From contig NC_087078.1 of assembly GCF_026151205.1 (NCBI RefSeq), positions 13,253,118-13,313,117 of the forward strand: a stretch of DNA of 60,000 nt, read 5' to 3'. The notes under the pieces are model-generated. The model saw nothing but the letters and a program-made list of their open reading frames with translations, made no database searches and was not told where the DNA came from. This document shows positions 2,906 through 49,084 of this stretch, piece after piece. A program made the position numbers and the translations under genes. The stretch comes from Bolinopsis microptera (lineage: Eukaryota > Ctenophora > Tentaculata > Lobata > Bolinopsidae). Numbering within the stretch: position 1 is the first letter of the stretch; each line of letters opens with the position of its first letter.

Positions 2906-3520
2906 TATCCACAAAATCTAAAAAGACAAGGAGGATCCTTTTTTAGAGTTGAGAGAGCTGGTTATATCGATGAGAACCAGCTTCGATGAGCAGATCAAGT
3001 CGATCAGAGGGTGTCTGTCGGCTCAGGACCCGGAACAGTGCAGAGCAGAGTGCAGACTAGCATAGCAGTCAGTGTAGTCGAGCACCACTTTAGGCATGGG
3101 ATTAACCTCGAGGAATGACCCACACTTATCAGTGCTGTTGCTAAATGCACAAGTAAACAAAAAAATTCAAGTAAACAAAAATGTATTATTTATCAACGAA
3201 TCAATACATAAATATTAGACTAATATATAAAGTGTCCAAGTATTTATCGATTTTAACCTAAAGTTTCAGTATCACTACACTACATACCCTACTACCCTAT
3301 CCGAGAAAAGTTTCAAACTACTTAATATTGTCTACTATCATGATCATATTAAAATTAGTATGCTCCCAAAAGATTGTCAGAGGGTGGAGGGGGTACTTTC
3401 AAAAATGTTTACAACCGTAAATGTTCTATTTAGAATTGAAAAATTTAAATTATGTTTTTTACCCTTTTTATTGTTATTTTTCTGTATAATTTGAAAGAAG
3501 AAAATTAACACGAGGGAGTT
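2906..3520. other. Non-coding, nothing recognised
   Basis: AT-rich sequence between the broken zinc-finger gene and the 3' end of the Penelope-like element. No supported gene. Confidence 0.4.
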
Positions 3521-3529
3521 TATTTCTCA

Positions 3530-4740
3530 ACGTTTCAAAACCAATGGTGGTTCCTTCATCAGGAGATGATGAAGTGCAGTGTGAGGGGGTATTTGAATGG
3601 AGTGGTGGTGTCAAGTGATCAGGTGGGAGGTGAAAATACATCAATCATAAAACTAAAAACTCAATCAAACAGGATCAATAACGAGCAGGAGGAGCGGTGT
3701 CAGCAAGAGGGAGGGATGCAGGCTTGGACTTCATGGAGTTGGAAAGTTTAGGAAGGAGGGGGTTCCAGAGGGAATGGATATTGGGGCCTACTAGCTGGCG
3801 GTTGCAGATAGGGTTGCGGATTTTGATGGCTGCGTGCTCGGCAAGGTTCAGGTGGTAGCGGGAGGAGGTTGTGGTAAGGACGGATGTCTGGCTCCAGGCG
3901 ATGGTGTGGTTGGATTCGATGGCGTGCTGGGCGACGGCGGAGTTGTTGAATTCCAGGGTGCTGTCAGAAAGGTGTTTATTGGTGGAAGCCTTGTGCTCTT
4001 TGATGCGTTTGAGGATGGGGCGGTAGGTCTGGCCGATGTAGCTGGCGGGGCAGTCCTTGCAGGGGATGGAGTAGATCGCGTTAGGAGTGAGGTGGGGAGG
4101 AGTAGGAGATTTGACGTTGGTGAGGGTGTCGCGCAGGGTCGTCGCGGAGGAGAAGGTAACATCGATGTCGTAGGAGGTGAGGATCTTCTTGAGGGGTTTG
4201 GACAGGGAGTGGTGGTAGGGTAGGCTGAATCGAAGGGAGGAGGGAGGAGAGCAGGTGCATTTGAACTGGCGGGCGGACATGGTAGTGGGGGAGGAGGTCT
4301 GCTTCAGGTGGATCTGGTTCATGATGCGGTCAACTCTAGGGGCAGGATGGCCGTTCGAGATGCAGATGGAGCGGACGGTTTGGAGTTCAGGTTGAAGGTG
4401 CTGAGGGGAGCAGAGGTTGTAGGCGCGGGTGATGAGGGAGCGGATGACGGAGTCCTTGGTGGAGGGTGCGGCGCAGGAGTTGTGGCGGGCATAGAGGTTG
4501 GTGTGGGTGGGTTTGCGGTAGACGGAGGTGGACTTATCGGGATGGATGAGGATGTCAAGGAAGGGAAGGTAGCCGTCTGAGGATGGGTGCTCGATGGTGT
4601 ACTGAAGGTCTGGGCAGAGGGTGTTCATGAAGCGGTGGAAGGAGTCTGCATGCGGTTGATCACGGAAGGCGCCGATACCGTCGTCCACGAAGTGCCTGTA
4701 GTCATTTGGGGGGTCAGTGAAAGATGATAAGGCTGTAAAT
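3530..4740 (-). mobile_element. 5'-truncated Penelope-like retroelement
   Basis: GC-rich block in AT-rich surroundings, on the minus strand. It contains the C-terminal part of a Penelope-type reverse transcriptase joined to a GIY-YIG endonuclease. Downstream of the stop (below 3,675) is a tail resembling 3' regions of such elements, including the complement of ATCAGGAGATGATGAAG at 3,557-3,573. At its 5' side the frame can be followed upstream of the first Met to about 4,735, where similarity stops abruptly. This is typical 5' truncation. Confidence 0.8.
3675..4735 (-). CDS. Penelope-like RT C-terminus + GIY-YIG endonuclease (partial)
   Basis: Penelope-like elements encode one protein in which a telomerase-related reverse transcriptase is followed by a GIY-YIG nicking endonuclease. 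Here the frame is open from about 4,735 (no start codon; the first Met, at 4,688, lies inside the RT). It begins with FTDPPNDYRHFVDDG, whose VDD is the RT catalytic motif C. Next come FLDILIHPD and TSVYRKPTHTNLYARHNS, the conserved RT thumb region. A linker with Cys residues (KCTCSP) precedes the GIY-YIG region: AIYSIPCKDC, then SYIGQT, then R-x5-EHK, with a downstream E (AEHAAIK) as candidate metal ligand. The C-terminus is LADTAPPARY. About 350 residues remain of a protein usually 700 or more; the RT fingers and palm are gone. The reading frame is uninterrupted, so truncation may be recent. Confidence 0.85.
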
Positions 4741-7785: not shown

Positions 7786-8697
7786 TCATTCTGCAGTCTT
7801 ATTAGTCTTATCAGTACTCTTTATAGCACCGTTTCTGATAAAGTGTAGCTTATCAGGCTGCTCAGTTACCAGTCTTTTCATGTCACTGACGAGTTCTCTT
7901 TGCTTGGCTCTCTGTTCTGGAGATCGATCTGGGCTGATAAAAACAGTTTTAAACTTTTCCGTTGCTCGCAGGTTTCTCGATTTAGCGAGAATCTGATTAA
8001 CAATTGTTGCACTTGCCGCAGTCACTTTAACTGGTCTCACAGCCTTGCCAGGTTTGAGCTTTCCGACTCTACTAGCTTCGATTCTGGGTTTCTCTCCGAT
8101 TGCTGAGAACACTTCACTGACCACGGTGCTGAGCTCCTCATTGTCCTGCTCCGATAAACCAAAAATCATCAGATTTTTGTTTCGGTCTTCCTCCTGTACC
8201 ACAGTTTTCACAGCTTTCTTGATCATTTCAGAACTGACAGGCTTCTGAGATTCTGGACAATTCGCCTGTAATACCGAGCTGAAGGATTGGAATTCAGCCT
8301 TGACAGACTCTCCGACTGACGATTTAACTGACGTCTGCAACGATTCCAACTGTTCATTTTTGCAGGCTAGTAGTTCTGACTGCAACTTAATGATGGTCTC
8401 CTGTGTCTCGAACATATGATGTTTAACTGAATTTGAGGCCATCTTGTAGTCCGTGGATACGACACCAGTGAACTCCTCCAAATATATTAATGCATCGTAC
8501 AACAAGTCACACGCAGTGTCCTTGTTCATCTTCTTCACGCGCGAAGGGGATAGTTGCCCAATTGCTGTGATCTCCATCTCGTTCATAGCCTTGTTGAGAA
8601 GTTCAACTGAGTCACCCCTTAACATGTTGATCTCCTTTTCACCATACTCGCTGGGCGGGATGGTCATGGTCGTGTAACACGGTGATACACAAACCAC
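7786..8697 (-). CDS. LINE ORF1-like coiled-coil/RRM-like protein, 303 aa
   Basis: A single uninterrupted frame from ATG at 8,697 to a stop at 7,786. Residues about 85-135 are rich in Lys, Glu, Leu and Ser with heptad-like spacing (probable coiled coil). Residues about 165-275 follow a pattern widespread in invertebrate non-LTR retrotransposon ORF1 proteins: NLMIFGLSEQDNEE, then EASRVGKLKPGKAVRPVKV, then ILAKSRNL, then VFISPDRSPEQRAKQRELV. In those proteins this RRM-like/C-terminal region binds RNA. No endonuclease or RT follows on this strand: downstream lies the AT satellite. It is either the 5' remnant of a LINE or a stand-alone, possibly domesticated copy. The intact frame in heavily decayed surroundings is notable. 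The assignment rests on pattern only. Confidence 0.6.
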   Translation of the reverse strand: MVCVSPCYTTMTIPPSEYGEKEINMLRGDSVELLNKAMNEMEITAIGQLSPSRVKKMNKDTACDLLYDALIYLEEFTGVVSTDYKMASNSVKHHMFETQETIIKLQSELLACKNEQLESLQTSVKSSVGESVKAEFQSFSSVLQANCPESQKPVSSEMIKKAVKTVVQEEDRNKNLMIFGLSEQDNEELSTVVSEVFSAIGEKPRIEASRVGKLKPGKAVRPVKVTAASATIVNQILAKSRNLRATEKFKTVFISPDRSPEQRAKQRELVSDMKRLVTEQPDKLHFIRNGAIKSTDKTNKTAE

Positions 8698-17850: not shown

Positions 17851-18382
17851 CAGGATGAAGCAAAGACTTGAAGAAAAACTAAGAGACAACAGAAATGGCT
17901 TCAGACCTGGTTGCTCTACAACTTCGCACATTCTTGTTCTGTGAAGAATTATATAGGGGTCTAAAGAGTGTGAAGGCCACTATGATGTTTATAGATTTTA
18001 ATAAAGCCTTTGACAGTGTACATAAAGGTTTGCTTATTAAGATTACTTAAAGCAAATGGATACCAGAATACATAGTGCGATTGATCTACACAAACACAGT
18101 GGCTTAAGTAATCACAACTGCAGATGGTATTACAGGGGTCTTCGAGGTCCTGGTAGGATCAGGATTCGGGAGTACTGCAAAGAGACACCTCATACTTGTT
18201 CATCATCGTGATTGACTATATCATGACAGTGGCTATAGATGATGACTCAGACTCTGGTTCACTCTTAAGCCTGCACAGGGTGTAGATGGATTTGTGCTGA
18301 AAATATCGCATATGTCAAATTCTCAGATGATGGTGCCCTTATCACTGATATAATTGAATGGGGCAAAACTACTCCTGGACAG
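17851..18382 (+). pseudogene. Older LINE reverse transcriptase, 5' half of split fragment
   Basis: Broken frames show a second, different non-LTR RT: EEKLRDNRNGF, MMFIDFNKAFDSVHKGLLIK (motif A, Asp in FIDF), LFIIVIDYIMTVAIDDDSDS, and FSDDGALIT (catalytic DD box). The series is interrupted by frameshifts and stops. The fragment is cut at about 18,382 by the PHD/AlkB LINE and resumes at 25,227. In the right arm the two halves are joined (27,040-27,060), so the uninterrupted form is visible there. Confidence 0.7.
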
Positions 18383-18462
18383 TTTTAATACTTTCAGCGC
18401 TGCTATATAACAAATAATTTGAGTTCAGGGATAGCATGTACTAGTACCCCCAAAGGGGAGAC

Positions 18463-20492
18463 GTGAGTTATTTGTTGCTTGATTTGTTTGCTGTGCTGTC
18501 TTTATTAGCTGTGTGTTTGCTTGGCTGTGCGATGTCAGGTACAGGTATAAAAACACCATCTACTGGAAATAGACGTGGCTCTGTGACAGGAACAGGGCCA
18601 ACCGCTAAAAAAGAGCATCATAATGTTGATAAATGCCCATGCAGCCAATCGAATGCTGGAAGCTTCAAGCTAATATGCACAGGATGCAAACAGAACTGGC
18701 ATGCAGATTGTCTGGGACTAAAGGGTATCACGAAGCCGTCAATAATGAAGCTGGAAAAGTGGTTATGTCCATTTTGCTACGTTGCACCCGTACCAACCAC
18801 CATCAAAGATATCTCATACGACAACTTCTGCTACAAATGTCGGAACACCTTGAGTCTACAACAGTCCAATAGTGATTATGAGGTGCACTCTGCCTGTCAG
18901 AATCTCAAGGACATAGAAACCTTGACGAAATCACTATCAACAATTGATGTTGATAAAATGAAAGAGTCGATCCAGGTGATCCAAAACCTCGACCTTCACA
19001 TGCAACACCTGCTAACCAATGAACATGGTTTGAAAGACCATCAAAACCGAGTCAAAAACATAGAAGACCATTGTAAAGGAGAGCTAAGTGAAGATGTAAG
19101 TGGTGTCAAAAAGGCTATTAAAGACCTTCAGAAACAAATCACAGATCTTTCCACCAAAGGTCTTGTCTCATCTACTGCTCCCAAGCTTGACACTGAGAAA
19201 TTGATACATGATATCATAGACCAGCTTGATGAACATACTCGGCAGGAACCGCATATTTCTCTTGAACTGAAGGAAATCAAGCAGTCTCTAGACCAACTAT
19301 CTTCCCAACAGACGACAATTCCTCATGATCAGCCATCATCTGGTTCTGCATTAAATGATAAGCACCTTCTATCAAAGACCACCTTTAAACATGAGGAAAA
19401 ACCTGTGGTAGACACCGTGGAAGAATTCATCGACAGTGATGTTGAATCAGACCTTCTCCAATACTGCGAATCTCTTCAGTTCAGTCAGGAGAATGGGCAT
19501 TCAGTATGTTCTTTTGGAGAGAAGTACAAGTATAGCGGATCCAGAGATGAGAATAAGAAAACCGTGGAGATCCCTGATAAAATTGCTGCACTTGTCCTGA
19601 AAATCAATGAGGAGTTCTGTGCAGAAGGAAACCCTGTAATGAATAGCGTGTTGATCAACCGCTATGAAGAAGGCGAGGGTTATCTGCCTGAACATTCAGA
19701 CAATGAACCGGTGATACATCCAGAGTCTAGCATATTGACTCTTTCCATTGGAGGTGAATGCAAAGTCCTCTTCACTGAAATGAACAACCCAGTTCACACG
19801 CACAAGTGTACTCCAAGATCAGTTTACAGGATGACCAGAAGGAGTCAGGCTCACTACAAGCACTCTATCCAGAAGGGGGTCAGTCACTGGTGCAGTACGA
19901 TATAGTTTCACCTTCAGATCAATAGATGGAAAGAATCGTGCCAGTACTTGTATCTTCTCTGATTCAAATGGAGCAGGTATGAATTTGGAGAGGATCACAA
20001 AAGGAGCTTTGGTAAGTGGCTGCCTGGTCGGAATGTTTGGACTCCTACAATAGATGACATAAACCCATATCTTGCATGTGGATACAAGAACATTGTTATT
20101 ATGTGTGGTATAAATGATGTTAGAGAGACCATCTGTTAAATCTCAGCGTGAAATTTTGCTATTTTAGTCATCTAGAATTCAAGATTGAGCAAATTCAAGA
20201 GGCCAATCCAACTGCCCAAGTATTTCTTTGTCCTCTTTTACCAACTCGAAATGCTGATTTAAATAGGAAAGTTCTTTACTTTATAGAACTTATTCGTCGT
20301 GAGCTACTCCCCAAAAACTTTGGTGTCCAGTTCGTTGATGGCTGTTGATGACTTCCTTGACAATAACACTGGCTTACTTTGCCTACCTTGTCCAGGGAGT
20401 TTGACAGATATGGCCGAACGGATTACCTGCACCTTAATTGGAAGGGAGTGGCCAAACTTGCTACTTTTAATCCGTAATACTGTCCTTGTTTA
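18463..20492 (+). CDS. LINE ORF1: PHD finger - coiled coil - AlkB dioxygenase - SGNH hydrolase
   Basis: The first frame runs 480 codons. A Met at codon 24 (18,532) may be the true start, since codons 1-23 are an odd hydrophobic run. PHD finger: C58, C60, C72, C75, H80, C83, C102, C105. Residues ~145-300 are Lys/Glu/Leu-rich, probably coiled coil. AlkB region: N399-R-Y401, iron ligands H411-S-D413, and distal H467. After a one-base excess in the G5 run at ~19,875 the +1 frame gives RYSFTFR, the R-x5-R 2-oxoglutarate/substrate motif. The SGNH hydrolase continues in that and a neighbouring frame: FSDSNGAG (block I Ser), MCGINDVR (block III Asn), DYLHLNWKG (D-x2-H). CR1-type ORF1 esterases are established; an attached AlkB domain is unusual. 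By analogy AlkB would remove alkyl groups from RNA or DNA bases. At least two frameshifts break the protein; they may be errors or decay. Confidence 0.8.
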
Positions 20493-20496
20493 GGAT

Positions 20497-23400
20497 GCAT
20501 GGAGGGACTGATAGGAGGAAGAGGGGGAGGAGGGACGGTAAAGCTGGTTCAACACTTTATTCTGATGCCGCCAGAGAACAGCCTCGTGTTGAAGGCTATC
20601 AGCCTCCAACATGAATGTTCTTAAAAAAGAGGTCTGTGCCCACTGTTTAAAAAGTATTTACTTAGGTCAATCTATAATTGAATGCTACCACTGTAATTGT
20701 GTCCCATTCACTCTAGATGCTTTAAACACCAGTGGACAAACAAAATAAAAAAGTTGACTTGTACTGCAATAATGTGTCTCCACCTAGCAGTAAAACCGTT
20801 ATAACCCATTTAAGCTTCTGAATGATGCCAATGATGACAACACTGATGCAGATGATGTAATACGTAAAATCTCTGATGTACTTGAAAGCTGTGACTCATA
20901 TTCTGTAAAAGACATAAACCGCACCTTTGCTAACGAATTACAAGTGCAAAAACTCACTAATATTTCAAAATCTTGATGGCAACAAATCAAACTTTGACTC
21001 GCTGGCAATTGAAATAGCTAGGTTTACTAACAAATTCTCTGTAATTGGTCTTGCTGAAACGAATGTAGGCCCTGAAATGAAAAACTTGTACGAACTCACA
21101 GGCTATGAGAGCTTCTATCAAGATACTTCGACTCGAAAGTAAAAGGCTCAGGAGTAGCTCTATATGTCCTGAACTCCTTCATGCTGTCAAAATAACAACC
21201 TTCCCAAGTAACAGAAAATCTAGAAACCCTCTTTGTAACTATAGGTAGTCTAGGAACTCTACTTCTATAGGAGTTAATATACGCGCCCTCCAAGTGGCAA
21301 TGCTGAGCAAGCTCTCCAAGAATTGTCGTCAATACTTGATAAAGCACCAAAACATACACACATTGCAGGTGATTTTTAACATTAATCTCCATAGTAACCA
21401 CAGTAGCATTATTGCACAGTATGAAGATGTCCTATTTAGTAGAGGCTTCTTTCCATTGATATCATTAGCAACTCATGAAAAGCCTGGATGTAATGCCTCG
21501 TGCATCGACAACATCATTACAAATGACCTAGACTCTGTTACTGCCTCTGGAGTCATAACTGATCACATATCTCATCACCTCCCTATATTTACAATATTTG
21601 ACTGGGAAATTAGCAAGACCAAAAATATTCACAAGCACACTCAATACTATGACTATTGTAAATCAAACACTGATAAATTTGCTGAAGTCTTGGGTAACAA
21701 ACTAGACAACGAACCAATTATAGATTTTACTAGCTTTCATGATATCTTTAAAAACAGCATTGACGAAACCTGTAAACTAGCTGTACCCAAAACCACTAAG
21801 CGCACTATGCAGAACAACCCATGGATTACTGGCGGGATTTATAGCCTCAGTAAACCACTGCCATGGGCTGTATGATGACTGGGCGAAAGTCAGGAAAGTT
21901 AAGTGTAAACAAGGCGAAACTGACACAAAAGGGGGCACATGCGTGTGTTCTAGTCTGCTGTAATAAAAGAAACCGTTATGATGACTACAAAGAATATAGA
22001 AAGGCTCTAAAAAAGGTTCGTAAAAAAGCTGTATCTGAATATTATTCTGACAAGTTTCTTGAAACTCAGGGAAATTCCAAGAAAACCTGGGAACTGATAA
22101 ATAAAATTCGTGGCAAACAGAAACGTGATATCAGACCTATATTTACCATAGACAATGAAAAGATAACTGATCGCAGAGTTATAGCTAATGAATTCAATAA
22201 GTATTTTGTATCCCTACATCTAACCTTAATGCAGCCTACACAGAACTAGGAGAGATACAAATAAATCAGCTTCCAAGTTTCTGTGACTTCTTACCTAAAT
22301 CGAATACAGCTAATATATATCTACATGACCTGCTCACCTGAGGAGGTGGCTAAGATCATATCGGACTTAAGAATGGCAAGGCTAGCGACATACCAGTACA
22401 TATAGTAAAGGCAGTATCAGGCAAAATTAGCCCACTACTATCGGTATTGTACAACGAATGTATGCAACAGGGATTTTTTCCAGACGACCTAAAGTAGGTA
22501 AAATAAGTCCAATAAATAAGAAAGAAAATGCTGAGCTTCTTGAAAATTACAGGCCTATCTCAACCTTAGCGATATTCGGTAAAATACTTGAAAAAATCAT
22601 ATTCTCCAGGCTTTACAGTTTCTTTCAGTCGCAAGGATTATTATATGAAAATCAATATGGCTTTAGAAAAAATCACTCGACAAGCCATGCACTCAACTTC
22701 TCTGTCGACTAACATTGAAAAATCTTTAAGAGATAAAAATCACGTACTAGGCATCTTCATTGATTTAAGTAAAGCTTTTGACACAATCGTCATGATAAAC
22801 TGCTTAAAAAACTGAATGATTATGGATTCGAGGGGACTGCAAATAAATTGATAGCCAGTTACCTTTCTATTAGACAGCAATATGTTTTCAGTACTTGGAG
22901 AAGAATCCGAAAAACTGTCTGTAATATTTGGTGTTCCTCAGGGGTCAGTATTAGGTTCCCCTTGCTTTTCATTATCTAAAATGAAATATATAGAGTATCA
23001 GACCAGGTAGTTTATACTTTTTTCCGAGACCCCAACATATTTTGTTGAGTAAATGTTAAAAAACCTTTACGCAAAACTAAAAAATTCTTAAATTGTTCAT
23101 CTAATGAAGATAACTTGCTGCTATAAAAATAAAAAATGTTGTTAAACCACTTTAAGCCAATGTAGAAATGAACCAGATTCAAACACCAAAGAATTAGAAC
23201 TACACTAAAAAATAATAATTAAAAAGGGGGAGGAAAAAAAGTTTTCTTGGAGTCATTATTGCCAAAAACTGAACTGGGATGCTCCCTTAAGAGCGTTTTT
23301 TTAAAAACCCTAAATTGAAATGTGAGATGGTAGATATGTGGAAAAAGACCTGTGTCCAAAAAAAAATATATAAGGACCTTACCACCAAAACCCTTTTTGA

Positions 23401-23950
23401 AACAACCTATGTTTGGAATATTGTTTGGGGAGGGGGGTTCAAATAATAAAATAGAAGCCTATTTAAAAACCAAAAGAAAACTAGAATTCCTTTTGGGGAA
23501 AAGTGCAAAACTTTAATAAGTTCAAAAAAATGTGCCAAAGGGGGCCTATCACAGGGATAAGACCCTAAAGTTTTAACAGATTGTTAGGCAAAGGGGGTTT
23601 CTTTGAACTAGAACCAGAAACCAATCTGAACGAGTATAATTCCTGAGTCCACAATCTATAATTTTGCACTGTTAGGAAATGTTTTAAAATTTTAAAAAGT
23701 TCCAATCACCAATCCAATGTTCTTTTATTCAAAAAGGTCACCAAAACGAGACAAATATTATCCCCCCCACCCCACCTCCTTTCTTTTTTACTCAACTAGT
23801 ATTTTTGGAAATACTGCCGTAAGTCAAACAAGTGAAAAACTTTCCACTCCCATCTTTTTCATTAACTTTAATTTAAAAACTTTTTTAGAACTACAACTAA
23901 ATAGATGCAATTTTGGGTTGGTTTCAATTTGTGCAAAATGTTTTTTCATT
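20497..23950 (+). pseudogene. LINE ORF2: zinc finger - APE endonuclease - reverse transcriptase (frameshifted)
   Basis: A start at 20,497 gives a basic leader (GGTDRRKRGRRDGKAG). Across a frameshift a PHD/RING-like finger follows: VCAHCLKS, ECYHCNCV, H-x2-C, YCNN. APE-type endonuclease: QNLDGNKSNFDSLA, LAETNVG (catalytic Glu), HIAGDFNINLH (Asp/Asn), TDHISHHLPIF (terminal Asp-His). RT: NYRPISTLAIFGKILEKI, YGFRKNHSTSHAL, GIFIDLSKAFDT (motif A), FGVPQGSVLGS (motif B). The FADD box at ~23,010-23,030 is garbled, and KVFLGVII can be read near 23,240. Frames break at ~20,620, 20,750, 21,140, 21,290, 21,860, 22,250, 22,700 and repeatedly after 22,970. The target-primed reverse transcription enzyme of the element; not functional as read. 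Confidence 0.75.
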
Positions 23951-25226
23951 GAAATTGTTGAAGTAAAAAATCAATGAAAAAAGGGTTATTGAAAAACCAT
24001 GAAAAGGGTATCAAAAAAACCAAAAAAACCCAACAAACGAAAAATCATCATACAACAAATTTTAAAATCCGCGGCACAGGACCGGTTTTCTACTTACCCC
24101 TCCCAAACCCCTTCTCCTTCTCCCTATCAGGTTTATTCTTTTAATTTTTTTTTAAATTGATAGCCCGATATATTTTCTTTTTAAAAGAAGTAAATGGCAT
24201 TATACATTGTTTGGTATCGTTGTATGTTTTGGGATAGTGTTTGTGACTGGGTAATACTTATGCTATATATTTTGAGGCTCAACGACGTCTCGTCCCAGGG
24301 GGAGTTGTAGGCGTTTGTGTTCTCCCCACTTGTTGGGAAACCTGCAGGTTTTTCCTTAGCCTTTGGGGCGATTTTGCCCCCCGGGGGTCCAAAAAAAATG
24401 ATTATCAGGACTTACTTTGCACATAAACTATCAAACGACTTGAATGATTCCCCGAAAATTTTTCAACTGCATTTAGCAGTTATAGAAATAACCGGTCGCG
24501 AATGAGGAGCACAATTGGGGTTTCTTTGTTTTGGACTGTTTTCCCCCGGTGGGCCCGACGGGTTTTTTTGTGTATAGGCTGGGAAAAAAAAAACGTTTTT
24601 AAATCATGAGAGACAAATTTTTAATTCTTGACCCTTTGTCCACAGTTTTTGTGGAAAAAAAATTTATGTTAAACGTTATATAATGTGAAGGGGATGTTTT
24701 TCTCCATCAAAAAGCTTTGGTGGATAATAGCAACAAGGTAAATGACCCTTTTTAAACATGCCCCCCAACTATAAACCCGAAAACCCTAGCTCCGAAATAA
24801 ATAAATTTGCTCTACAAGAAACATCAGGCCTGATCCTATCACATTGTGGTCCCCAGGGGTTCGGTAAAGCCCTTACAGCAACTGGGTCCTTTTACCAGCC
24901 ACAATAAAATTGGTCATGCCAGTACTGTCATAAACTGTAACCAACTATTTAAAAATTAGACATCTTTTGCTAAATTTTAAATTTAAGTCATAGAGCAATC
25001 TTCTTAATTAAAAATTTTAAGAATTATATTTTACCCTAACTATGATGTGGTGGCATTTCATACTTAACTAAATTTCAACTTTGAAAGTAAATAGATTATT
25101 AGTGACAACAAATTATAGTTTAAGACATCCATTCTGCATTGTGTTTCCAATATTAGAATTTATGATATGTATTGATTGAATAATTGGTAAGATATTTAAC
25201 TTTTGTTTATTAACTTTTGTTTTAAT

Positions 25227-43519: not shown

Positions 43520-46130
43520 GTTTGAGTGGAAGAGTAATTAATGAGGGAAACGTTGAGTAACACTGATGAAGACAGAGAGTTACCACTAAATGGGAGAGTA
43601 ACTACTGAGCATGAGGGAAATGTAGAGTATCACTGACGAAGACAGAGAGTTAATACTGAGTGGGAGAATAACTTCTGAAGGAAATGTCTAGAGTAACACT
43701 GATGAAGATAGAGAGTTAACACTGATTGGGAGAATAACTACTGAGGGAAAGACAGAGAAGTTAACAGAGAGTTAACTCTCAGTGTGAGAGTAACTACTGA
43801 GTACTGAGGGTCTAGAGTAACACTGATGAAGATAGAGAGTTAACACTGATTGGGAGAATAACTACTGAGGGAAAGACAGAGAAGTTAACAGAGAGTTAAC
43901 TCTCAGTGTGAGAGTAACTACTGAGTACTGAGGGAAATATAGAATAACACTGACGAAGACAGAGAGTTAATACTGAGTGGGAGAATAACTACTGAGGGAA
44001 ATATATAGTAACACTGACGAAGACAGAGAGTTAATACTGAGTGGGAGAATAACTACTGAGGGAAATGTAGAGTAATACTGACGAAGACAGAGAGTTAATA
44101 CTGAGTGGGAGAATAACTACTGAGCAAAATATAGAGTAACACTGACAAAGACAGAGAGTTAACTCTCAGTGTGATAGTAACTACTGAGGGAAATATAGAG
44201 TAACACTGACGAAGACAGAGAGTTAATACTGAGTGGGAGAATAACTAAAATGAGAGAAATGTAGAGTAACACTGATGACGACAGAGAGTTAAAACTGAGT
44301 GAAAGAGTAACTACTGAGAGAAATGTAGAGTTACACTGATAGAGACAGAGAGTTAACTCTCAGTGAGAGTAACTATACTGAGGGAAATGTAGAATAACAC
44401 TGATGAAGACAGAGAGTTAATACTGAGTGGGAGAGTAGCTACTGAGGGAAATATAATAGAGTAACACTCACGAAGACAGAGAGTTAATACTGAGTCGAGT
44501 GGGAGATTAACTTCTGAAGGAAATGTCTAGAGTAACACTGATGAAGATAGAGAGTTAACACTGATTGGGAGAATAACTACTGAGGGAAATATAGAGTAAC
44601 ACTGACGAAGACAGAGAGTTAATACTGAGTGGAAGAATAACTGCTGAGAGAAATGTAGAGTAACACTGATGAAGACAGAGAGCTAGAGTTAATACTGCGT
44701 GGGAGAATAACTACTGAGAGAAATGTAGAATAACACTGATGAAGACAGAGAGTTGATACTGAGTGGGAGAATAATTACTGAGAGAAATGTAGAGTAATAC
44801 TGACGAAGACAGAGAGTTAATACTGAGTGGGAGAATAACTACTGAGCGAAATATAGAGTAACACTGACGAAGACAGAGAGTTAACTCTCAGTGTGAGAGT
44901 AACTACTGAGGGAAATGTAGAATAACACTGATGAAGACAGAGAGTTAATACTGAATGGGAGAGTAGCTACTGAGGGAAATATAGAGTAACACTGACGAAG
45001 ACAGAGAGTTAACTCTCAGTGTGATAGTAACTACTGAGGGAAATATAGAGTAACACTGACGAAGACAGAGAGTTAATACTGAGTGGGAGAATAACTAAGA
45101 TGAGAGAAATGTAGAGTAACACTGATGACGACAGAGAGTTAAAACTGAGTGAAAGAGTAACTACTGAGAGAAATGTAGAGTTACACTGATAGAGACAGAG
45201 AGTTAACTCTCAGTGTGAGAGTAACTATACTGAGGGAAATGTAGAATAACACTGATGAAGACAGAGAGTTAATACTGAGTGGGAGAGTAGCTACTGAGGG
45301 AAATATAATAGAGTAACACTCACGAAGACAGAGAGTTAATACTGAGTCGAGTGGGAGATTAACTTCTGAAGGAAATGTCTAGAGTAACACTGATGAAGAT
45401 AGAGAGTTAACACTGATTGGGAGAATAACTACTGAGGGAAATATAGAGTAACACTGACGAAGACAGAGAGTTAATACTGAGTGGAAGAATAACTGCTGAG
45501 AGAAATGTAGAGTAACACTGATGAAGACAGAGAGCTAGAGTTAATACTGAGTGGGAGAATAACTACTGAGAGAAATGTAGAGTAACACTGATGAAGACAG
45601 AGAGTTGATACTGAGTGGGAGAATAATTACTGAGAGAAATGTAGAGTAATACTGACGAAGACAGAGAGTTAATACTGAGTGGGAGAATAACTACTGAGCG
45701 AAATATAGAGTAACACTGACGAAGACAGAGAGTTAACTCTCAGTGTGAGAGTAACTACTGAGGGAAATGTAGAATAACACTGATGAAGACAGAGAGTTAA
45801 TACTGAGTGGGAGAGTAGCTACTGAGGGAAATATAGAGTAACACTGACGAAGACAGAGAGTTAATACTGAGTGGGAGAATAACTTCTGAACGAAATGTCT
45901 AGAGTAACACTGATGAAGATAGAGAGTTAACACTGATTGGGAGAATAACTACTGAGGGAAATATAGAGTAACACTGATGAAGACAGAGAGTTAATACTGA
46001 GTGGAAGAATAACTGCAGAGAGAAATGTAGAGTAACACTGATGAAGACAGAGAGTTAATACTGAGTGGAAGAGTAACTACTGAGAGAAATGTAGAGTAAC
46101 ACTGATGAAGACAGAGAGTGAACAATGAGT
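43520..46130. repeat. 64-bp minisatellite, ~41 copies, with 850-bp higher-order repeat
   Basis: Units run GGGAGAATAACTACTGAGGG, AAATATAGAGTAACACTGAC, GAAGACAGAGAGTTAATACT, GAGT. Marked variants recur at fixed distance. For example, the GATGACGACAGAGAGTTAAA variant at ~44,274 and ~45,124, and TGAGTCGAGTGGGAGATT at ~44,491 and ~45,343, show an ~850-bp block duplication. Confidence 0.9.
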
Positions 46131-47543: not shown

Positions 47544-49084
47544 GGCTCAATAAAATGTGACCTCCAGATCAGTAAAATTAGGGGCGCTGGGAGAGCTGCA
47601 TAGAGTCCACTAGTATTTAATATTAGCCTGTACTGGCTCAATAAAATGTGACCTCCAGATCAGTAAAATTAGGGGCGCTGGGAGAGCTGCATAGAGTCCA
47701 CTAGTATTTAATATTAGCCTGTACTGGCTCAATAAAATGTGACCTCCAGATCAGTAAAATTAGGGGTGCTGGGAGAGCTGCATAGAGTCCACTAGTATTT
47801 AATATTAGCCTGTACTGGCTCAATAAAATGTGACCTCCAGATCAGTAAAATTAGGGGCGCTGGGAGAGCTGCATAGAGTCCACTAGTATTTAATATTAGC
47901 CTGTACTGGCTCAATAAAATGTGACCTCCAGATCAGTAAAATTAGGGGCGCTGGGAGAGCTGCATAGAGTCCACTAGTATTTAATATTAGCCTGTACTGG
48001 CTCAATAAAATGTGACCTCCAGATCAGTAAAATTAGGGGCGCTGGGAGAGCTGCATAGAGTCCACTAGTATTTAATATTAGCCTGTACTGGCTCAATAAA
48101 ATGTGACCTCCAGATCAGTAAAATTAGGGGCGCTGGGAGAGCTGCATAGAGTCCACTAGTATTTAATATTAGCCTGTACTGGCTCAATAAAATGTGACCT
48201 CCAGATCAGTAAAATTAGGGGCGCTGGGAGAGCTGCATAGAGTCCACTAGTATTTAATATTAGCCTGTACTGGCTCAATAAAATGTGACCTCCAGATCAG
48301 TAAAATTAGGGGTGCTGGGAGAGCTGCATAGAGTCCACTAGTATTTAATATTAGCCTGTACTGGCTCAATAAAATGTGACCTCCAGATCAGTAAAATTAG
48401 GGGCGCTGGGAGAGCTGCATAGAGTCCACTAGTATTTAATATTAGCCTGTACTGGCTCAATAAAATGTGACCTCCAGATCAGTAAAATTAGGGGCGCTGG
48501 GAGAGCTGCATAGAGTCCACTAGTATTTAATATTAGCCTGTACTGGCTCAATAAAATGTGACCTCCAGATCAGTAAAATTAGGGGCGCTGGGAGAGCTGC
48601 ATAGAGTCCACTAGTATTTAATATTAGCCTGTACTGGCTCAATAAAATGTGACCTCCAGATCAGTAAAATTAGGGGCGCTGGGAGAGCTGCATAGAGTCC
48701 ACTAGTATTTAATATTAGCCTGTACTGGCTCAATAAAATGTGACCTCCAGATCAGTAAAATTAGGGGTGCTGGGAGAGCTGCATAGAGTCCACTAGTATT
48801 TAATATTAGCCTGTACTGGCTCAATAAAATGTGACCTCCAGATCAGTAAAATTAGGGGCGCTGGGAGAGCTGCATAGAGTCCACTAGTATTTAATATTAG
48901 CCTGTACTGGCTCAATAAAATGTGACCTCCAGATCAGTAAAATTAGGGGTGCTGGGAGAGCTGCATAGAGTCCACTAGTATTTAATATTAGCCTGTACTG
49001 GCTCAATAAAATGTGACCTCCAGATCAGTAAAATTAGGGGCGCTGGGAGAGCTGCATAGAGTCCACTAGTATTTAATATTAGCC
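47544..49084. repeat. 91-bp satellite, 17 near-identical copies
   Basis: Period exactly 91 bp, starting GGCTCAATAAAATGTGACCT and ending AATATTAGCCTGTACT. The clearest variation is GGGGCGCTGG versus GGGGTGCTGG: the T form occurs in units 3, 9, 14 and 16. The array stops abruptly at AATATTAGCC, followed by CpG-rich unique sequence. Confidence 0.95.

Follow-up and report, generated by a model that had tools for sequence, protein, structure and literature searches.

A damaged long interspersed nuclear element (LINE) in the window, that is, the whole 60,000-nucleotide stretch of Bolinopsis microptera contig NC_087078.1, carries in its first open reading frame (ORF1) an AlkB-type 2-oxoglutarate (2OG) and Fe(II) dioxygenase domain between a PHD finger and an SGNH hydrolase. 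Copies in the same genome preserve this architecture and its active sites, the domain is under purifying selection, and the family has been mobile recently. Retention of the ligands, AlkB ratios of nonsynonymous to synonymous substitution rates (dN/dS) of 0.08–0.21 and the pairing of AlkB with SGNH in 79 of 81 frames together indicate that selection maintains the enzyme domain in a LINE that has moved recently. One function suggested by its presence is clearance of the element's own template ahead of copying.

The AlkB domain and its element

The window ORF at 18463–19905 encodes the PHD finger and the AlkB domain; the end of the latter and the SGNH esterase follow past a frame shift, and further 3′ on this strand comes sequence for a reverse transcriptase. 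The likelier start of ORF1 is the ATG at 18532, where the first residue of a database relative, P0001, aligns, rather than the GTG at 18463. The parts of the element are as follows.

18381..25224 (+): whole LINE copy, damaged, about 6.8 kb; blastn against the intact sister copy L021, 92.7% over 7016 columns
18381..18423 (+): 5′ leader with the end AATTTGAG, probably a spliced leader; identical in sequence to a leader-plus-GT unit that forms a tandem array in another part of the genome
18532..19895 (+): 5′ part of ORF1, intact, 454 codons
18634..18777 (+): PHD finger (PF00628, 26.0 bits, amino acids 58–105 of the GTG frame)
18778..19407 (+): predicted coiled coil and linker, by homology to the P0001 model (helices 101–269)
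19420..19921 (+): AlkB 2OG-Fe(II) dioxygenase domain; HSD at 19693, third His at 19861, RYSFTFR at 19898 past the frame shift; fold from the relative P0001
19922..20480 (+): SGNH hydrolase remnant, frame-shifted; DSN at 19961, GIND at 20107, DYLH at 20421
20486..20610 (+): C-terminal tail of ORF1, arginine-rich, GGTDRRKRGRR
20611..23200 (+): ORF2 remnant with many frame shifts and stops, overlapping the stop of ORF1 at its start (ATGA)
22536..22956 (+): reverse transcriptase pieces YRPIS, IFIDLSKAFD and GVPQGSVLG (PF00078 in two pieces, E 1.2e-7 and 0.016)
25196..25224 (+): 3′ end of the element, about two copies of TTAACTTTTGTTTTA, without poly-A

In Pfam scans of the window ORF, both 2OG-FeII_Oxy_2 (PF13532; 53.6 bits, E 4.5e-14, cut-off 31.2) and PHD (PF00628; cut-off 24) scored over their cut-offs, so the two identifications go beyond chance. 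The original prediction had located the key residues in the sequence and proposed a profile search for a 2OG-Fe(II) oxygenase and a model of the fold, and each bore it out. Counted from the GTG, NRY lies at 399–401, HSD at 411–413 and H467 exactly where described, with RYSFTFR in another frame at 19898; the SGNH blocks are likewise as claimed (SDSNGAG at 19958, CGIND at 20104, DYLHLN at 20421). The domain contains the HxD...H iron triad and the R-x5-R 2OG motif, together with a Glu after HxDx, as in ALKBH2 and ALKBH3. The predicted model of P0001 shows the jelly-roll (double-stranded beta-helix) fold of solved AlkB proteins, with a predicted local distance difference test (pLDDT) score of 92–98 across most of the domain. 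The best profile and fold matches were ALKBH2 and ALKBH3, with an identity of 21–23% in the fold alignments. The PDB sequences closest to the AlkB part of the window were ALKBH2 chains (E 2e-4), and the top Foldseek matches were ALKBH2–DNA complexes.

The SGNH part was identified from its catalytic blocks. PF13472 stayed under its cut-off in every protein scanned. A PDB sequence search with this part gave one match (E 0.26) and found no LINE esterase, and 4c1b was absent from the 50 structure matches listed; kinship is still possible in both cases.

Identity of the window copy to L021 was about 98–100% in most 200-base bins up to 23000. The alignment had no indels in 18601–19800, 14 indel events in 19801–20800 and 34 in 19801–23000, and it is because of these events 3′ of 19801 that the SGNH part and ORF2 are broken in the window copy. 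The breaks may reflect either true decay or assembly error. The start of ORF2 (window 20611–20730, and ORF2 N-termini) has a Cys/His-rich stretch with a weak C1 zinc domain match (16–19 bits, below the cut-off).

Copies, conservation and selection

A search of the same genome (264.65 Mb, 232 contigs) with ORF1 returned at least 90 matches, and the closest other copies listed were 97–98% identical, with open frames of 709 amino acids. From the 90 matches, 20 long loci (9 kb each, L021–L040) and 8 short loci were picked mostly for long frames, so that their intactness is that of a selected sample. ORF1 is unbroken, with 709–751 codons, in 19 of the 20 long copies (L029 has a stop), and an ORF2 frame of 1,112–1,150 codons is present in 13. 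Intact copies encode PHD, coiled coil, AlkB and SGNH in ORF1 and endonuclease and reverse transcriptase in ORF2, and the ATGA overlap between the two frames occurs in 17 of the 20 (exceptions L037, L038 and L039). Pfam scans of three copies (L021, L033 and L039) detected AlkB in L021 and L033, PHD in L021 and L039, and SGNH below its cut-off in L021 and L033. RVT_1 scored 124.5–132.5 bits in all three ORF2s; Exo_endo_phos_2 exceeded its cut-off only in L039 (33.9) and fell below it in L021. By the domains of its ORF2, the element fits the APE-type LINEs. It terminates in a short tandem repeat and has no poly-A, a trait of LINEs of the CR1/L2 lineage. Identity reaches 99.7% between L033 and L034 (6,955 columns) and 99.9% between L024 and L025 (3,201 columns), which indicates that the family moved recently.

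For active-site counts, five free-standing AlkB-like proteins (P0068–P0072), L029 because of its one stop, and the window copy were dropped. The iron and 2OG ligands, which the original prediction had described as fully kept, are present in 27 of 27 ORF1s examined from this genome and in 97–99% of the covering rows among 80 database relatives (1–2 mismatching rows per position), and their positions are among the most conserved columns. This result bears on the idea that the domain is a nucleic-acid-binding module that replaces the RNA recognition motif (RRM) missing from esterase-type ORF1 proteins, with catalysis incidental. A binder has no need of metal and 2OG ligands, and because they are kept we regard a pure binding role as improbable. 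The SGNH Ser, Asn, Asp and His are each kept in 27 of 27 ORF1s from this genome and are frame-shifted in the window copy; covering rows of the database relatives have Ser in 66/66, Asn in 61/61, Asp in 56/56 and His in 55/56.

Precomputed PF13532 matches were present in 42 of 46 database relatives retrieved by the window ORF (identity down to about 28%), one of the 46 being from Mnemiopsis leidyi. A database search with SGNH alone, which does not select for AlkB (lengths limited to 0.55–1.75 of the query), gave 20 proteins, 13 of them new, and all 20 had PF13532. In the Bolinopsis genome 150 SGNH and 150 AlkB matches were scored and 69 of the 150 SGNH rows, in frames shorter than 600 amino acids, were dropped; 79 of the remaining 81 have an AlkB match whose end lies 0–9 nt upstream. 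With the Pfam matches, this upholds the predicted placement of AlkB between PHD and SGNH in a LINE ORF1. AlkB also occurs in subfamilies that the window query missed (P0036 and the short locus L055).

Selection was estimated as dN/dS by the Nei–Gojobori method with the Jukes–Cantor correction and 200 codon bootstraps; the most distant subfamilies gave saturated comparisons, which were left out. Four separate subfamily comparisons gave 0.075, 0.144, 0.152 and 0.206 for the AlkB domain, every interval lying below 0.33. Over the 66 pairs with usable dS, which are non-independent, the median was 0.144 (range 0.063–0.458). ORF2 gave 0.074 for L021/L024. The AlkB domain is under purifying selection, and the neutral decay of the motif set against which the original prediction wished to be checked was not found. 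A chance resemblance or a decaying passenger domain, which might be read into the break of the window copy past 19895, is already contradicted by these ratios, the PF13532 E value, the confident model and the AlkB–SGNH pairing, and we give it practically no weight.

The distances of individual domains differ between copies. In L039/L047, AlkB and SGNH are similar (dS 0.30 and 0.24) and PHD is saturated; L033/L038 shows the reverse pattern, with SGNH saturated. The domain trees differ in nearest neighbours for the ORF1s of L039/L047, L033/L038 and L021/L024. These distances and the conflict among trees point to module swapping among ORF1s. Scans of viral contigs with query A1 (66 pattern matches) and of other genome contigs with P0001 (26 pattern matches) confirmed no relative, so the DNA compared is that of the Bolinopsis genome.

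What the domain may do

The best explanation as a whole, to which we give a probability of about 45%, is that an ALKBH2/ALKBH3-like demethylase in the ORF1 protein clears methyl groups of the 1-methyladenosine (m1A) and 3-methylcytidine (m3C) type from the RNA or complementary DNA (cDNA) of the element. A bicistronic LINE RNA would yield an ORF1 protein (PHD finger, coiled coil, AlkB dioxygenase, SGNH esterase, arginine-rich tail) and an ORF2 protein (endonuclease, reverse transcriptase). Multimers of the former would hold the putatively active oxidative demethylase on the element RNA, where it would strip that RNA, or newly made cDNA, of methyls on the Watson-Crick face such as those in m1A and m3C. 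As in other ORF1 proteins of the esterase type, the esterase and tail may contact membranes or RNA; the PHD finger may be a chromatin reader. Both m1A and m3C impede common reverse transcriptases, and AlkB treatment takes them off (PMC12140624). Template clearing would therefore be the simplest advantage of the domain: because Watson-Crick-face methyls stall reverse transcriptases, demethylation would keep the template readable. More tentatively, we envisage a ctenophore LINE radiation with its own template-clearing enzyme, nature's version of the AlkB pretreatment done in laboratories, in which the ORF1 protein removes reverse-transcription-blocking RNA methylation before copying and the domain is shuffled among subfamilies as a module.

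Several observations weigh against this explanation. The activity of the enzyme, its nucleic-acid substrate, its RNA binding and its action within an ORF1 ribonucleoprotein are what we infer. The apparent closeness to ALKBH2/ALKBH3 is one of similarity scores over two thirds of the AlkB paralogues, not of a tree. L039 ORF1 has no PF13532 match at E 0.01, yet keeps the motif residues. Two of the 81 SGNH frames have no AlkB match upstream (C11:15168996-15169553, 1474 amino acids; C1:9182125-9182682, 782 amino acids). Finally, some close pairs, with few changes, gave dN/dS intervals that span 1: 0.39 (0.10–1.88) for L024/L027, 0.28 (0.04–1.37) for L033/L035 and 0.31 (0.11–1.44) for L043/L045.

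The nearest profile is that of ALKBH2, a DNA enzyme, and the best structural matches are complexes with DNA; in addition, a PHD finger adjoins the AlkB domain. The domain could thus act on DNA instead of RNA, repairing or demethylating alkylated cDNA, the target site or chromatin to which the PHD finger directs it, an alternative that we hold to be unlikely. Another candidate mark is N6-methyladenosine (m6A), which the domain might erase from the LINE RNA so that it escapes reading by the host, as proposed for orchid Gypsy elements. In vitro, an ALKBH5-like protein of orchid Ty3/Gypsy elements binds RNA and demethylates m6A (PMC9289625), but here profile scores and folds are nearer to ALKBH2/ALKBH3 than to ALKBH5, and m6A helps human L1 (PMC7873242). 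On both grounds erasure of m6A is less likely, and we consider it quite improbable. Of the function originally proposed, action on the element's own RNA or cDNA is thus supported as an inference, while m6A as the mark has lost ground. ALKBH8 and NMAD-1 also score against the domain (45.4 and 37.8 bits), as would suit a different substrate, such as tRNA (ALKBH8-like), a protein or a host restriction factor. Both rank under ALKBH2/ALKBH3, and Pfam scans of ORF1 gave no RRM or methyltransferase partner; this possibility is slight.

Leaders, neighbouring features and known systems

Among 21 copies (the 20 loci and the window copy), 12 have one leader, 4 have another (in two sequence variants) and 5 have neither. 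Different leaders join the same body within one LINE subfamily, and in L024 the junction is 5 nt further in. Both leader ends, where GT follows them, occur in tandem arrays: at least 83 matches lie in C1:14.49-14.55 Mb, spaced mostly 434 bp apart, and a run lies in C3:13.51-13.53 Mb, with a spacing of mostly 591 bp. The arrays appear to be arranged as genes for spliced-leader RNA would be, and the LINE RNAs were probably trans-spliced to spliced leaders before retrotransposition. Those with the end AATTTGAG are similar to the spliced leader known from another ctenophore, Hormiphora, which has a karyotype of 13 (PMC8527503). Thirteen contigs of the present genome add up to about 258 of its 264.65 Mb, in keeping with a ctenophore host.

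A first look gave 587 PF13532 candidates in the genome, of which 150 were scored, with 151 matches. With such numbers in a 265-Mb genome, AlkB may be among its commonest enzyme domains. Repeated PF13532 frames measure 551, 593, 611, 644–646 and 707 amino acids, and a few 3,226–3,388. Five matches checked by position sit 730–769 bases downstream of a dispersed leader-plus-GT site, which makes further AlkB-bearing element families likely.

Elsewhere in the window, two long frames on the reverse strand resemble, by eye, a GIY-YIG-bearing retroelement end (3675–4688) and a transposon-like coiled-coil protein (7786–8697). Tandem arrays occupy 43523–46130 (period 64, 40 copies) and 47544–49084 (period 91, 17 copies, 99% alike).

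The domain shares with ALKBH2 and ALKBH3 (PF13532) the double-stranded beta-helix, the iron triad, R-x5-R and the Glu after HxDx; it differs from them in its low identity and in its fusion into the ORF1 of a retrotransposon, where a coiled coil and SGNH flank it. AlkB domains also sit in the replicases of plant RNA viruses, where RNA repair has been proposed. In both cases a selfish element carries the domain, but the viral context is a replicase, and viral structural matches (for example, Grapevine virus T) had low TM-scores and identities.

Esterase-type ORF1 proteins of ZfL2-1 and CR1 (PMC3905857) likewise have a coiled coil followed by an SGNH-type esterase, and an arginine-rich peptide, but are described there without AlkB, and the table of PMC4120745 places no PHD beside an esterase. 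An N-terminal PHD finger is shared with PHD-type ORF1s of CR1 and L2 (PMC4120745); the five ORF1 types described there include no oxygenase (the text has no “2OG”, “oxygenase” or “Alk”), and the esterase is restricted to two vertebrate groups. In the table passages of that paper, by Metcalfe and Casane, the combination of PHD, AlkB and esterase matches no row among types I–V. Full-text literature yielded no LINE with AlkB, most subscription papers and Repbase lying outside the scope of the search. The nearest known case, within these sources, is the ALKBH5-like ORF of orchid Ty3/Gypsy elements, which also gives a retroelement an AlkB-family demethylase (PMC9289625). There it is a separate ORF of the ALKBH5 subfamily in a long terminal repeat element, recent and narrow; here it is fused in the ORF1 of a LINE, nearest to ALKBH2/ALKBH3 and spread over many diverged subfamilies.

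ORF1 proteins are the least understood component of LINEs. A catalytic demethylase kept through deep divergence would imply that methylated bases in the element's RNA or cDNA are a genuine obstacle to retrotransposition in this host. A natural genetic test of that obstacle is at hand, since copies are intact, the active site is defined and the biochemical assay is simple. The element would also extend the range of ORF1 types and provide, in an animal, a counterpart to the AlkB domains that plant viruses and orchid Gypsy elements carry.
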